DNA of 64,000 bases. Origin: Pseudomonas sp. MM211 (GTDB lineage: Bacteria; Pseudomonadota; Gammaproteobacteria; Pseudomonadales; Pseudomonadaceae). The notes beneath the pieces were generated by a model that searched no databases, was not told the origin of the DNA, and saw nothing but the letters and a program-made list of their open reading frames with translations. The DNA is taken from NCBI RefSeq assembly GCF_020386635.1, contig NZ_CP081942.1:930001-994000 (forward strand), given 5' to 3'. Below, in pieces: positions 1 to 5,016 of this stretch; within the stretch, counting starts at the first letter, position 1, and each line of letters begins with the position of its first letter. The translations under genes and the position numbers were made by a program.

Positions 1-15
1 GGGCATAATAGCGCC

Positions 16-330
16 TCTGTCGGTGTCCGTCGGCTACGTGGTACGTAGGCGCGGGCCTAAGAGGGAACACGATATAAAACGTGTTCAATATCTAGCGAGC
101 TAGAGCCATGCAAGGCAGAAAGGGGCGAGAAAGCGGAGTTTACGACTGTAAATGAGCATTTCGAGTCGCTTTCTAACGCAGCAGGGCCGACGCGCAGCAG
201 ATATTGAGCAGGTTTTCAGCCGTGGCTGCCCCCGCAACTGTAGCAGCGAGCGCATGTGCCAATCGCCACTGGGAAACCGGGAAGGCCGGTCACGCGCCAT
301 GACCTGCGAGCCAGGAGACCTGCCGACGGA
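16..330 (+). promoter_or_regulatory. Cobalamin (AdoCbl) riboswitch, split by a MITE-like insertion
   Basis: The leader of the cob operon carries the conserved pieces of a cobalamin riboswitch in order. A left half at 16-71 has the 5' strand of P1 (16-23) and the GGGAA core (63-67). A right half at 220-330 has the CCCCGCAACTGT core (near 230-241), the CACTGGG...CCGGGAAGGC arm (267-286) and the B12-box-like CCAGGAGACCTGCCG (311-325). P1 can close across the whole region: 16-23 pairs with 323-330 (seven Watson-Crick pairs and one G-U). CACG at 68-71 can pair with CGTG at 221-224 as the base of P5. A 141-bp inverted-repeat element (76-216) occupies the place of the P5 loop. L5 normally makes the kissing contact with L13 needed for control, so the switch may fold its core but respond poorly. 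Identification is firm; the functional effect is inference. Confidence 0.85.
76..216. mobile_element. MITE-like element inside the cobalamin riboswitch
   Basis: The ends are imperfect terminal inverted repeats: 76-92 (AAAACGTGTTCAATATC) is complementary to 200-216 at 15 of 17 positions. A small perfect palindrome, TCTAGC-GA-GCTAGA, lies at 91-104. No coding sequence of transposase size is present. It shares a 13-base identical core (95-107) and a 25-base block with one mismatch (174-198) with a shorter element at 51518-51599, which marks both as members of one family. No clear target duplication can be seen. As RNA the terminal repeats would fold into a long arm stacked on riboswitch P5. Confidence 0.7.
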
Positions 331-437
331 TTCAGTCGCATGTGCCCACACCGGGCGGGGTGTTCCGGTGATAGAAGCTCGTCCTTCTCTGGCCTATCCT
401 CGAACGGATGCCCATGTGACCCGACCCCGGTGATCCG

Positions 438-1793
438 TTGAAACAGGCTTTTTGCATTCCATCCCCTGCTGTTCGCCCCTCGGCCTGTCCGGGGTTGCTG
501 CGTATCGTGCAGGCGAAGGATGGCGGCATCTGCCGGATCAAGCTGGCCTGCGGGCGCCTCGATGCCACCGGAGCCGAGCGCATAGCCCAGGCCGCACAAC
601 GCCATGCAGGCGGCGTGATCGAAGCCACCAACCGCGCCAACCTGCAGATTCGCGGCATCCACGCCGGCAGTGAAGACGCATTGATCGGCGAGCTGCTGGC
701 CGCCGGCCTCGGCCCGCGCTCACCCGCTGCCGACGATGTGCGCAACCTGATGGTCAGCCCTGCGGCTGGCCTCGACCCGGCGGCGCTGGTCGACGTGTCG
801 CCACTGGCCGCACGCCTGCTGACGACCCTGGAGAACACTCCGCGCCTGCACGCGCTGTCGGCCAAGTTCGCCCTGCTGCTCGATGGCGGCGAACGCCTGG
901 CCATGCTCGAACACCCTCACGATATCTGGCTCAGCGCCCTGCCGCTGGAGGGCCACATCGGCTATGCGTTCGGTCTCGCCGGTTGCCCGCCACAAGCGCC
1001 TGGCGATGTGCCCGCGCTGGCCGTGGTGCCCGAGGCCCATGCCGATGAGCTGCTGCTGGCGCTGCTCGACCTGTTTCTTGAACTGGCCACGCCCGAGCAG
1101 ACACGCATGCGCCACCTGCTGGTCAGCCACCCGGCCGCCGAGCTGCTGCAGCGCCTGAAGGAGCGCCTGGGTGACGTGCTGCTGGGCGCGGATGACTGGC
1201 GACGCAGCCCGGCGGAGTCCCAGGCCCATATCGGTATCGGCGGCCAGCGCCAGCCTGGCCGCGTGTATGTCGGCGGCGTCCCTCCATTGGGCCGCCTCGA
1301 CGCCGAACAGCTGCTTGGGCTCGCCGCTCTGGCTAGGCGTCTGGGCGATGGCAGCCTGCGCATGACGCCCTGGCAGAGCGTGTTGCTGCCCAATGTTACC
1401 GAGGCCGATGCACAGGCAGCCCTCCAGGCGCTGGAGGGGCTCGGCCTGTTGGTCGACGCCGATGCGCCGCTGACACGGGTGATCGCCTGTACCGGCTCGA
1501 GCGGTTGTGCCAAAGGCCTGGCCGATACCAAGGCCGATGCCCGCCGCCTGGCCGAGATGCTGAAGACCCGCAGCCGGCTGGCGGGTATTCATCTCAGCGG
1601 CTGCAGCCGCTCCTGCGCCGCCGCTCACCCTGCGCCGGTGACCCTGCTGGCGGTAGCCGAGGGCCGCTACGACCTGTTCGCCCGCCAGGCGGACAGCACG
1701 AATTTCGGCGAGCCACTGGCCCGCCACCTGACACTCGACGAAGCCAGCGAGCTGCTGGCCTCGCTTCCCGATACCTGGAGTTTCACCCGATGA
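438..1793 (+). CDS. cobG: Precorrin-3B synthase CobG
   Basis: CobG is the iron-sulfur monooxygenase of the aerobic cobalamin pathway; it converts precorrin-3A to precorrin-3B with O2. The 451-residue product has the nitrite/sulfite-reductase ferredoxin-like fold. Four cysteines suited to the [4Fe-4S] centre are visible: C351 and C357 in CTGSSGC, and C389 and C393 in SGCSRSC. The frame opens with TTG at 438; a weaker choice would start inside the conserved RPSACPGLLRIV segment, so TTG is preferred. It is the first gene after the cobalamin riboswitch and overlaps cobH by four bases (ATGA), so the cob genes are probably co-transcribed and translationally coupled. Confidence 0.93.
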   Translation: MKQAFCIPSPAVRPSACPGLLRIVQAKDGGICRIKLACGRLDATGAERIAQAAQRHAGGVIEATNRANLQIRGIHAGSEDALIGELLAAGLGPRSPAADDVRNLMVSPAAGLDPAALVDVSPLAARLLTTLENTPRLHALSAKFALLLDGGERLAMLEHPHDIWLSALPLEGHIGYAFGLAGCPPQAPGDVPALAVVPEAHADELLLALLDLFLELATPEQTRMRHLLVSHPAAELLQRLKERLGDVLLGADDWRRSPAESQAHIGIGGQRQPGRVYVGGVPPLGRLDAEQLLGLAALARRLGDGSLRMTPWQSVLLPNVTEADAQAALQALEGLGLLVDADAPLTRVIACTGSSGCAKGLADTKADARRLAEMLKTRSRLAGIHLSGCSRSCAAAHPAPVTLLAVAEGRYDLFARQADSTNFGEPLARHLTLDEASELLASLPDTWSFTR

Positions 1794-2422
1794 CCGATTA
1801 CATCCGCGATGGTCAGGAGATCTATCGCCATTCCTTCTCCATCATCCGCGCCGAGGCCGACCTGAGCGCTATTCCGGCGGATCTCGAGAAGCTCGCGGTG
1901 CGGGTCATCCACGCTTGCGGCATGGTCGATGTGGTGCAGGATCTGCGCTTTTCCGCGGGTGCCGGTGCAGCCGGTCGCCAGGCCCTGGCCAATGGCGCGG
2001 CGATTCTCTGCGATGCGCGCATGGTCGCCGAAGGGGTGACCCGTGCGCGCCTGCAAGCGGCCAACCCGGTACTCTGCACCCTCAACGATGCCGGCGTGCC
2101 TGAGCTGGCCAAGAAGCTGGGCAACACCCGTTCGGCGGTGGCGCTGGAGCACTGGCGCGAGCATCTCGAAGGCTCGGTGGTGGTGATCGGCAACGCACCT
2201 ACCGCGCTGTTCTATCTGCTCGACATGCTGGCTGCGGGCGCGCCCAAGCCAGCGCTGATTCTCGGCTTCCCGGTGGGCTTCGTAGGCGCGGCGGAATCCA
2301 AGGATCTGCTCGCCAGCACCTTTGCCGAGCATGGCGTGCCCTACGTGATCGTCCAGGGCCGTCGGGGCGGTAGCGCCATGGCCGCCGCCGCGGTCAACGC
2401 CCTGGCCACGGAGGTCGAGTAA
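1790..2422 (+). CDS. cobH: Precorrin-8X methylmutase CobH
   Basis: CobH (precorrin isomerase) moves the C-11 methyl group of precorrin-8X to C-12 to give hydrogenobyrinate. The 210-residue protein has the usual length. The histidine in VIHACGM (residue 41) matches the family's catalytic histidine, and the glycine-rich [14 protein letters not shown] and [13 protein letters not shown] segments are typical. The ATG lies within the cobG stop (ATGA), and the stop overlaps the cobI start (TAATG), so it sits in the middle of a coupled operon. Confidence 0.95.
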
Positions 2423-3183
2423 TGAACGGTATGGACCGCCCCGGCAAAGGCCGCCTGCTGGGCCTGGGCGTAGGCCCGGGCGACCCCGAGCTGATCACCC
2501 TGAAGGCCCTGCGCCTGCTCAAGTCGTCACCCGTGGTCGGCTACTTCGTGGCCAAGGCCAAGGCCAATGTCGGCCAGGGCGGCAACGCCTTCGGCATCAT
2601 CGAAGGCCACCTGGACGACAGCCAGCAGCGCCTGCCACTGGTGTATCCGGTAACCACCGAAAAACTCGAACCGCCGCTGACTTACGAAGGCGTGATCAGC
2701 GACTTCTACGACACCTGTGCAGTGCAGATCGCCGAGCATCTGGACGCTGGTCGCGACGTGGCGGTGATTTGCGAAGGCGACCCGTTTTTCTACGGCTCCT
2801 ACATGTACCTGCATGACCGCCTGGCCGAGCGCTACGAGGCCCAGGTGATCCCCGGCGTGTGCTCGATGCTCGGCAGCGCGGCGGTGCTCGGCGTGCCGCT
2901 GGTGTACCGCAATCAGAGCTTGTCGGTGCTCTCCGGCGTGCTGCCCGAAGACGAGCTGCGCGAGCGCCTGCGTGATGCCGAAGCCGCCGTGGTGATGAAG
3001 CTGGGTCGCAACTTCGAGAAAGTCCGCCGCGTGCTGCAGGACCTTGGTTTGCACGACCGTGCTCACTACGTGGAACGGGCGACCATGGCCAACCAGCGCA
3101 TCGTGCCGCTGGATGAAGTCGAACCGATGGCCTCGCCGTATTTTTCAATGATCGTGGTGCCCGGTGAGAAGTGGCGCGGTTGA
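2422..3183 (+). CDS. cobI: Precorrin-2 C20-methyltransferase CobI
   Basis: CobI is a SAM-dependent tetrapyrrole methylase that methylates precorrin-2 at C-20 to form precorrin-3A, the substrate of CobG. The 253-residue product shows the class III methylase signatures: [16 protein letters not shown] near residues 12-28, [14 protein letters not shown] around residue 116, and [13 protein letters not shown] around residue 145. The start overlaps the cobH stop by one base. A REP-type palindrome (3219-3306) separates it from cobJ, the only sizeable gap in the operon. Confidence 0.95.
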
Positions 3184-3351: not shown

Positions 3352-5016
3352 ATGATCTCTTCACCCGCCATCGTCATCCTCGGCACCTCTGCGCTGGCCA
3401 CTGCACGGCGCATCCAAGCACTTTATCCACAGGCCGTTATCCATGGCTTGCGTGAGCGGGTAGACGCCGACCAGGCCTACGACGACTTCGGCGACACCCT
3501 GCGCAACCTGTACCGCAGCGGCACGCCGATCATCGCCTTGTGCGCCGCTGGTATCGTCATTCGCAGCCTGGCGCCGCTGCTCGCCAGCAAAGGTGCCGAG
3601 CCACCGGTGCTGGCCGTGGCCGAAGACGCTAGCGCCGTGGTGCCGCTACTTGGCGGCCTGGGTGGCGTCAACCGCATGGCCAGGGAGATCGCCGCGACGC
3701 TGGAAACCAGCGCGGCCATCACCACCAGTGGCGAACTGCGCTTCGGCACCTGCCTGCTCGACCCGCCGAGCGGTTATGCCCTGGCCGACCTGGAGCAGGG
3801 CAAGCGCTTCGTCTCCGACCTGCTCGGCGGCGAAAGCCTGCGCATCGATGGCACCGCGCCGTGGCTGAACGAAGCCAGCCTGCCACTGGCCGAGGATGCC
3901 GGCCGTACCGTGCGGATCACCACCGAACAGCGCCCTGCGCAGGCTGACGAACTGCTGATCCATCCACGCACGCTGCTCGTTCTGGTCGACCAGGCAGATG
4001 ACCTTGCCGCGCCCATCCGCCAGGCATTCGAAGACTCGCGCCTAGCGCCGAAATCCCTGGCCGCCCTGCTAGCCCCCCAGGCGCTGATGGGTGACAAGCG
4101 CCTGACCCAGGTCGCCAGCGACCTCGCCGTACCGCTGCGCTTCGTCCGCGCTGACGATGGACTGCCACCTCGGGTGCATCACAGCGAAAACCTGCAGTTG
4201 CTGCAGGCCGACTCGCCTGAAGCGGCGCAAGGCATTGGCCGCCCCCGCGGTCGCCTGAGCGTGATCGGCCTGGGCCCCGGCGCCGCCGAGCACATGACCC
4301 CCGCGGTACGCCGCGCGCTGGACGAAGCCGAAGACCTGCTCGGCTACGAAACCTACGTGAAAATGGCCGAGCCGCTGCGCCCGGAACAGGTGCGCCACTG
4401 CAGCGACAACCGTGAAGAGCTGCAACGCGCCCGCCATGCCTTCGAACTGGCCGCCAGTGGCCGCCGCGTGGTGGTGATTTCCTCCGGCGACCCCGGCGTA
4501 TTCGCCATGGCAGCGGCGGTGCTGGAGGCTTTGGAAGAAGCGGGCGCACCGGTCGACTGGAACAGCGTCGAGCTGGAAATTCTGCCCGGTGTCTCCGCTG
4601 CCCTGGCCACTGCCGCCAAGGCCGGCGCGCCGCTGGGCCACGACTTCTGCCTGATCTCCCTGTCGGACAACCTCAAGCCCTGGGCAGTGATCGAAACCCG
4701 CCTCGACCATGCTGGCGCAGCGGATCTGGCGATGGCCTTCTACAACCCGATCTCCAAAGCCCGCCCCTGGCAGCTCGGCCGCGCCCTGGAAATCGTCCGC
4801 CAGCACCGCACGCCCGACACGGTGGTCGTGCTCGGCCGCGACATCGGCCGCCCCGCCGAAGCCCTGCGTGTACTCGGCCTTGGTGAACTGACGCCAGAGA
4901 TGGTCGACATGCGCACCCTGGTGATCATCGGCTCCAGCCAGACCCGCCGCTTCCCCCGAGGCGATGGCGGTGAGTGGGTGTACACGCCGCGCAGTTATCC
5001 ACAGCTGCAGCCGTAG
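3352..5016 (+). CDS. cobJ: CbiG-like/CobJ fusion, precorrin-3B C17-methyltransferase
   Basis: CobJ methylates precorrin-3B at C-17 with ring contraction to precorrin-4. At 554 residues the protein is about twice the length of a bare CobJ. The first roughly 290 residues resemble CbiG (an N-terminal Rossmann-like part with CAAGIVIRSLAPLL and TTSGELRFG, then a central linker). The C-terminal part from about residue 300 is the SAM methylase, with VIGLGPGAAEHMTP near 303 and ISSGDPGVFAMA near 377. Such CbiG-CobJ fusions are known in Pseudomonas. It follows cobI after a 168-bp gap that holds a REP palindrome. No further cob gene follows in this window, so later steps must be encoded elsewhere. Confidence 0.93.
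   Translation: MISSPAIVILGTSALATARRIQALYPQAVIHGLRERVDADQAYDDFGDTLRNLYRSGTPIIALCAAGIVIRSLAPLLASKGAEPPVLAVAEDASAVVPLLGGLGGVNRMAREIAATLETSAAITTSGELRFGTCLLDPPSGYALADLEQGKRFVSDLLGGESLRIDGTAPWLNEASLPLAEDAGRTVRITTEQRPAQADELLIHPRTLLVLVDQADDLAAPIRQAFEDSRLAPKSLAALLAPQALMGDKRLTQVASDLAVPLRFVRADDGLPPRVHHSENLQLLQADSPEAAQGIGRPRGRLSVIGLGPGAAEHMTPAVRRALDEAEDLLGYETYVKMAEPLRPEQVRHCSDNREELQRARHAFELAASGRRVVVISSGDPGVFAMAAAVLEALEEAGAPVDWNSVELEILPGVSAALATAAKAGAPLGHDFCLISLSDNLKPWAVIETRLDHAGAADLAMAFYNPISKARPWQLGRALEIVRQHRTPDTVVVLGRDIGRPAEALRVLGLGELTPEMVDMRTLVIIGSSQTRRFPRGDGGEWVYTPRSYPQLQP

Follow-up and report, generated by a model that had tools for sequence, protein, structure and literature searches.

A gene cluster containing four genes (cobG, cobH, cobI and cobJ) is located at the start of the window, the whole stretch of 64,000 nucleotides of Pseudomonas sp. 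MM211 DNA that was analysed. Each gene has an NCBIfam match above the cut-off. The N-terminal part of CobJ shows a weak match to CbiG, with the CbiG models below their cut-off. The cluster comprises the following features:

about 430 nt at the window start, + strand: leader upstream of cobG, cobH, cobI and cobJ (window sequence)
438..1793, + strand: cobG, precorrin-3B synthase (TTG start as in the ORF list; NCBIfam TIGR02435)
1796..2422, start approximate, + strand: cobH, precorrin-8X methylmutase (NCBIfam NF006136)
2422..3183, + strand: cobI, precorrin-2 C(20)-methyltransferase (NCBIfam NF004647)
3352..5016, + strand: cobJ, precorrin-3B C(17)-methyltransferase (NCBIfam TIGR01466)

The segments AACGGAT (403-409) and ATCCGTT (433-439) could pair with each other, and the resulting hairpin would conceal the TTG start of cobG (438-440). 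Upstream of these segments, the leader contains a cobalamin riboswitch interrupted by a non-autonomous transposon (MITE), arranged as follows:

4..341, + strand: cobalamin (AdoCbl) riboswitch aptamer RF00174, MITE-interrupted (Infernal/cmscan, 101 bits, E 4.3e-24)
12..24, + strand: P1 5' strand (Rfam alignment; 17-24 all pair, 12, 14 and 15 unpaired)
25..56, + strand: P2 arm (25-30 pairs with 51-56, Rfam alignment)
57..67, + strand: J2/3, P3 5' strand (62-64) and J3/4, identical in all seven carriers of a P4 insert
68..71, + strand: P4 base, 5' strand, pairing with 221-224
74..76, + strand: left 3-bp place of the TNA target duplication, here ATA (family boundaries)
76..93, + strand: left terminal inverted repeat arm (repeat search; 89% complementary to 199-216)
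77..215, + strand: MITE of family A, 139 bp, in the tip of P4 (matches in the same genome; ends set by comparing copies)
199..216, + strand: right terminal inverted repeat arm (repeat search)
216..218, + strand: right TNA place, here TCA (family boundaries)
221..224, + strand: P4 base, 3' strand, pairing with 68-71
227..236, + strand: P5/L5 UGCCCCCGCA, one half of the L5-L13 kissing loop, intact (Rfam alignment; L5 consensus from excerpts of PMC10653944)
305..335, + strand: J6/3, B12 box AGCCAGGAGACCTGCC and P1 3' strand (Rfam mapping)
349..370, + strand: predicted P13 hairpin, stem 349-354/365-370 (read from the sequence)
355..364, + strand: predicted loop L13 GCGGGGTGTT, complementary to CCCCGC of L5

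A single cobalamin riboswitch match was found by Infernal at 4-341, where positions 1-189 of the RF00174 model are complete at 101 bits (gathering score, 31.5) and 142 nt of one arm are unmodelled. The match covers both sides of the insert, and the two aptamer halves lie in order around it, as the earlier note had proposed from the sequence. The claim that P1 pairs across the insert also stands: when the Rfam structure is mapped onto the window, P1 occupies 12-24/322-334 with standard pairs throughout 17-24/322-329, and positions 16 and 330 read as a U-A pair. The same mapping places P3 at 62-64/319-321 and P5 at 227-228/235-236. The pairing of 68-71 with 221-224 at the base of the interrupted arm was correctly described, but the arm had been labelled P5 and its loop, L5, considered lost. 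In the crystallised AdoCbl riboswitch, as given in excerpts of PMC4436661, the hairpin that follows GGGAA is GCCGG-UGCAAGU-CCGGC and the next hairpin holds GGUCCCGCC, and excerpts of PMC10653944 give UCCCG as the L5 consensus and place L13 in the expression platform. This hairpin order and the L5 consensus identify the interrupted arm as P4 and leave L5 (227-236) untouched; the helix numbering of the window was fitted to these excerpts by us.

The B12 box AGCCAGGAGACCTGCC and the CCC core of L5 GCTGCCCCCGCAAC are both present in the window riboswitch. The sequence GCGGGG (355-360) complements CCCCGC of L5 (230-235) in a predicted pairing read from the sequence, and we infer that the hairpin at 349-370 is P13/L13. 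Every one of the seven P4-insert carriers has the motif CGGGG at the place of L13, as do all 20 cobG leaders without an insert that were checked. The B12 box and the L5 and L13 motifs are present in all seven carriers; because the carrier leaders were collected via the L5 motif, L13 alone is an independent test of L5-L13 retention. With L5 and the predicted L13 intact, the reason previously given for expecting lost B12 control falls away. The GAAA/GCAA loop of the P6 extension was considered as L13 and rejected, since L13 belongs to the expression platform in the excerpts of PMC10653944. The 7-nt L4 of the crystallised member (UGCAAGU type) is absent in the window, where the MITE takes its place, and also in five relatives with a short P4; its absence is no bar to RF00174 membership because the model match stands. 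L4 has a docking role.

The insert belongs to a dispersed repeat with 42 matching rows in the same genome (query 72-220), some of which are pieces of one copy, so that its description as MITE-like holds. Queries with another copy gave 43 matching rows in genome G429 and 41 in genome G001, again including pieces. The aligned copies are imperfect palindromes, 139 bp in most well-delimited cases, with 17-bp ends GAACSTGTTCACGATCT and TNA outside both ends. Thirty copies were fetched from the window's genome and 20 tested; both ends were returned by the script for 16, with L007, L010, L015 and L017 poorly delimited, and identical TNA target duplications flank nine of the 20. At the window copy the flanks are ATA and TCA, which are not identical, and a target duplication is therefore not recognisable there. 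The element had been described as an inverted repeat of 141 bp at 76-216; the inverted repeat is present (89% complementary), whereas comparison with other copies sets its size at 139 bp (77-215). Longer relatives with the same ends (L210-L213) span 224-509 bp. A search for matching ends in 10 genomes returned only longer relatives, with no recognisable transposase gene in the five stretches fetched. As RNA, 68-224 folds as one continuous arm of -63.4 kcal/mol, compared with -40.0 +/- 3.4 kcal/mol for 200 shuffles (z -6.9), consistent with the proposal that the terminal repeats extend the arm. Over 119 nt (window 97-215), the element also has a match of 76.7% in Halomonas sp. PA16-9 (NZ_CP040452.1), with three places in that record, and the family A repeat may reach beyond Pseudomonas.

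The arrangement is most probably a tolerated MITE insertion in the P4 tip of a working cobG cobalamin riboswitch and one case of a repeated process. A 139-bp MITE entered the terminal loop of P4, probably in an ancestor of the species group. Being an imperfect palindrome, the element would give an RNA that folds back on itself and does no more than lengthen P4, and the strands of the four-way junction, L5 and the expression platform would meet as before. Corrinoid binding and repression of cobGHIJ by the switch are most probably retained, and the long arm would be a likely target for cutting by RNase III.

The insertion boundary is real, since five natural relatives without the insert (P. daroniae, P. 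flavescens, P. seleniipraecipitans, P. straminea and P. dryadis) show a short hairpin at its place, as a comparison with relatives had been expected to decide. By our own measure, P4 is 19-33 nt long in uninserted leaders. In the cobG tree, the window groups with P. flavescens, P. daroniae, P. seleniipraecipitans and P. dryadis, all with a short P4, and a sister group of seven carries the P4 MITE in all except P. straminea. A short P4 of the form AGCRGA-N4-TCTGC, whose tetraloop varies freely, is found in members of both subclades (L067, L068, L069 and L075); the form that the subclades share is AGCAGA-N4-TCTGC. Since the short P4 and the MITE P4 are each found in both subclades, the history requires losses or local exchange of P4. 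From the sequences compared, a single insertion in an ancestor, followed by loss or by local exchange of P4, fits best.

It is also possible, if rather doubtful, that the P4 insertions of the window and of the other subclade are separate events, or that P4 moved between species by local recombination. The presence of the short P4 in both subclades would suit this explanation, as would the identical P2 arms of PA27 and P. straminea, which differ in P4 (MITE in PA27, short in P. straminea). A common insertion is indicated by the arm variant TTCAATANCTAGCGAGCTAG, which, with one mismatch allowed, occurs once each in the window's genome (G000), G001 and G429, solely at the cobG riboswitch. In addition, the window has the P2 type of the subclade to which it belongs (identity of 1.00 to P. 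daroniae and 0.63 to G429), and other MITEs are also common to both subclades.

Adoption of the insert, with a longer P4 or RNase III processing tuning the switch and being kept by selection, is unlikely. The arms have 17-18 pairs in the six of seven carriers measured (the arm script could not delimit the remaining carrier, G34), compared with 8-15 pairs in 10 sequences at four other shared MITE loci. One arm pair changes from T-A (window and G429) through a G/A mismatch (PA27 and G34) to G-C (P. punonensis, URMO17 and P. argentinensis). RNase III cutting is known from Correia elements (excerpts of PMC10969869) and from 23S rRNA intervening sequences (excerpts of PMC4990558), which would suit an adopted arm. 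However, the arm duplexes of the riboswitch copies (-18.2 to -22.9 kcal/mol) are average among 61 genomic copies (mean -20.0, median -22.0), and matched arm changes are also found in unrelated genomic copies outside riboswitches (L006 and L014). Because non-riboswitch copies covary and the arm stability is average, the arm covariation is a hint only, and the paired arm changes between the window and G001 were rejected as proof of selection. Palindromes can also homogenise by template switching, which is a neutral alternative.

Slow evolution of the insert was likewise weighed as possible proof that it is selected: the carriers share 89% identity over the insert, compared with 73% at third codon positions. 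The identity between the window copy and that of G429 (0.89) is unremarkable beside the 0.80-0.945 of six comparisons at the four other shared MITE loci, one of which (L017-L313) is shared by one flank only; the pair L008-L305 was dropped as not orthologous. As orthologous MITEs elsewhere are about as conserved, the insert identity was rejected as evidence specific to the riboswitch.

The core of the riboswitch is strongly conserved among the seven carriers, which agrees with the earlier reading of a natural insertion in a riboswitch with its core kept. The mean pairwise identity is 100% for J2/3-J3/4 together with the P4 5' base, 98% for the P4 3' base to P5, 98% for J6/3 to the B12 box and 99% for P13. 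Lower values were obtained for the P6 extension (96%), the P1 5' strand with the promoter region (94%) and P2 (88%), and the comparison values are 73% for cobG third codon positions and 70% for upstream DNA. All 20 cobG leaders scanned (15 inserted and five uninserted) score above the Rfam cut-off. Enforcing the aptamer fold costs 4.1-14.0 kcal/mol over the unconstrained minimum in the seven carriers and 7.5-12.0 kcal/mol in the five short relatives used as the control; these values cover helices only, with 29-33 of 33 pairs enforceable. A constrained fold that also forces lonely pairs (-122.8 versus -159.7) makes the cost look larger. The ranges for carriers and short relatives indicate that the insert adds no visible secondary-structure cost. 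The aptamer was not obtained by minimum-energy folding of the whole leader, and the short relatives behave alike.

A broken switch with constitutive cobGHIJ expression, reached by a route other than L5, is unlikely. It could be argued from the 139-bp insert in the aptamer, from the replacement of L4 and from the Infernal scores of the P4-insert leaders (90.8-104.1 bits, window 101), which tend to be lower than the 102.4-117.8 bits reached by the five short relatives. The identity of the core segments (98-100%) against that of third codon positions, the B12 box and L13 motif in all seven carriers, and the lack of extra folding cost argue against it, and the natural loss of B12 repression suggested by the earlier note finds no support. 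Judged from core sequences and predicted folds, the switch core of the window probably survives, and control of the genes is most likely retained.

That the arm is simply a hairpin that has grown, or an artefact of assembly, can practically be dismissed: P4 length does vary naturally in uninserted leaders, but the dispersed matching rows, the terminal repeats with TNA duplications, and the same insert in other assemblies contradict an origin without a mobile element.

The insertion in the window is not a single oddity: in related species, further arms of the cobG riboswitch carry repeats of this family and of others. Named genomes were searched with CobG, and the best 80 of the 96 loci, ranked by how similar their CobG is to that of the window's genome, were examined; an L5 motif search found a riboswitch at 52 of them (40 Pseudomonadaceae and 12 Burkholderiales). 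Since this search is blind to switches broken at L5, all 28 motif-less loci were scanned with Rfam, giving four riboswitches and none at the other 24. The four are L107 (Pseudomonadaceae, of ordinary span), L125 (cut by a contig end), and L119 and L133 (Paraburkholderia). The window, L125 and the misparsed L137 were excluded, and 41 usable leaders of Pseudomonadaceae were obtained.

Recognised repeats of three families (A, B and C) were found in 15 of these 41 riboswitch-bearing cobG leaders of named Pseudomonadaceae, among the best 80 of 96 loci. The repeats are located in P2, J2/3, P4 or P6, as follows:

P4 inserts: L070, L072, L073, L074 and L076
P2 inserts: L077, L108, L109, L113 and L121
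J2/3 inserts: L126, L132, L134 and L146
P6 inserts: L087, and the second repeat of L134

Thirteen of the 15 inserted leaders match MITEs of the window's own genome, and the other two (L132 and L146) contain only repeat B. This repeat is also present in L134 and, with both strands counted, gave 23 matching rows in either of the two genomes searched for it. The leader L104 has a longer P2 with no match to these repeats. With 42 rows in 5.28 Mb, roughly 0.002 matches would be expected in a stretch of 210 nt, and roughly 0.014 if intergenic DNA, assumed to make up 12%, held every copy, compared with the observed 15 of 41; the 41 leaders are not independent, as five share the P4 event and three share the J2/3 B event.

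Genus-wide pattern scans (398 genomes each) found at least one P4 case and at least 10 P2 or J2/3 cases; these are lower bounds with edge effects, and the P4 scan missed the window's own copy. Some of the cases probably come from strains that are already among the named ones (G001 and URMO17WK12:I2, for instance, have leaders without a single difference in 900 bases). By our reading of site, family and orientation, at least eight distinct cases are present in cobG leaders:

Family A: P4; J2/3; P2 forward (2FG); P2 reversed (guineae, CC6-YY-74 and composti)
Families B and C: J2/3 B; P6 C (mendocina group); P2 C (otitidis); P6 C short (boanensis)

Two inserts at once, B in J2/3 and C in P6, occur in L134, L179, L180, L182 and L183. 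In leaders with J2/3 inserts and some with P2 inserts (L126, L132, L108 and others), the Infernal match to model positions 1-189 begins inside the insert, and the true 5' part (P1 and P2) is consequently misplaced in automated annotation. In the leader of Pseudomonas sp. 2FG (L077), the P2 MITE is accompanied by a further palindrome (CCCTGTGGATAACACC...) within the P6 extension. In three Paraburkholderia cobG leaders (L131, L135 and L137), the P2-P3 region is expanded by a palindrome of about 48 nt, part of which also matches eight places in six Burkholderia/Paraburkholderia records; by its sequence, this expansion may extend the insertion pattern to another order.

A total of 133 cobalamin riboswitches were found in 24 genomes, 11 of which were picked for a pattern-scan match and two of which (G000, the window's own genome, and G001) were already known carriers; about 109 are non-cobG if each genome has one cobG switch. 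Sixty-one stretches, chosen for long span or lower score, were compared, and the rest were taken as uninserted unread. Firm MITEs were identified in four non-cobG cobalamin riboswitches (L202, L264, L254 and L259). Tentative MITEs, none counted as firm, were found in three others, namely L203 (G145, at E 0.004) and L205 (G362) and L206 (G013), both with the look of a trimmed MITE by eye. Partial copies outside the aptamer (L206 and L216) and a copy about 80 bp upstream (L265) were not counted in the MITE comparison. A further copy, recognised by sequence only, lies in J2/3 of a cobG-type leader (L255, G145). At the same P6 site, between the same flanks, L202 (G099) and L264 (G305) have 128 and 158 nt and L205 has 24 nt, and the 24-nt form looks as if it had been trimmed by internal deletion.

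Fifty-nine MITE loci were scanned with Rfam: 29 of the 30 fetched from the window's genome (L001 was left out), 10 of 30 from G429 and 20 of 30 from G001. One structured RNA encloses a MITE among these loci, the rne-II (RNase E) leader of the window's genome (189.7 bits; L016 1393-1802, C1 about 4367569-4367978), in which a family A MITE lies in an apical loop with TGA on both sides. Four other Rfam matches (tRNA, SRP RNA, PrrF and gabT) adjoin a MITE and do not surround it.

Several comparable systems have been described. The 23S rRNA intervening sequences (e.g., Coxiella helix 45), which are cut by RNase III according to excerpts of PMC4990558, resemble the present case in that a palindromic insert in the hairpin tip of a structured RNA is tolerated. 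They differ in that the insert here is a multi-copy MITE in a regulatory mRNA leader, for which a long duplex is predicted, whereas RNase III cutting is known for the rRNA inserts. Correia elements are likewise MITEs within transcripts; the excerpts of PMC10969869 describe them in Neisseria mRNAs, with RNase III cutting at the terminal repeats in the reported cases, and this account, unlike ours, is not of a position inside a riboswitch aptamer. The same excerpts state that MITEs could conceivably form riboswitches. In the pneumococcal trp operon, a BOX element lies between two T-box leaders (excerpts of PMC3049150). Here, too, a repeat lies in a leader that contains riboswitches and apparently remains functional, but it is placed between two riboswitches and not in an aptamer helix. 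Compared with RF00174 itself, the window riboswitch has the full consensus, P1-P6, L5, the B12 box and a predicted P13/L13 upstream of cob genes, and differs in having a 139-bp transposon in place of a 7-nt loop at the tip of P4. A literature search, with most subscription journals outside its scope, turned up no MITE described within the aptamer of a riboswitch, and recurrent MITE insertion in riboswitch aptamers appears to be undescribed.

Returning to tolerated insertion as a repeated process, palindromic repeats of several families would insert into structured leader RNAs at their tips and outer junctions and be tolerated there, and internal deletion may later trim them to shorter helices. 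For cobalamin riboswitches and the rne-II leader together, there is perhaps an even chance that riboswitches grow peripheral helices from MITEs, which would be tolerated because they are self-folding and would later be trimmed, with long ones possibly cut by RNase III into a two-piece form. The inserted leaders are natural repeated experiments on riboswitch tolerance, in which P2, J2/3, P4 or the P6 extension has more than 100 additional nt, some leaders have two inserts, and the core motifs are unchanged. They could explain in concrete terms how large riboswitches came by their variable peripheral arms, and close relatives provide matched natural leaders with and without the insert. They also give warning that automated models can misplace the 5' part of inserted switches.

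Two further cobalamin riboswitches are located back to back in the window's genome, 71 bp apart, at C1:1070955-1071156 (- strand) and C1:1071228-1071407 (+ strand). The + strand riboswitch is 94% identical to window 218-324, which suggests a recent duplication or an exchange between riboswitches.
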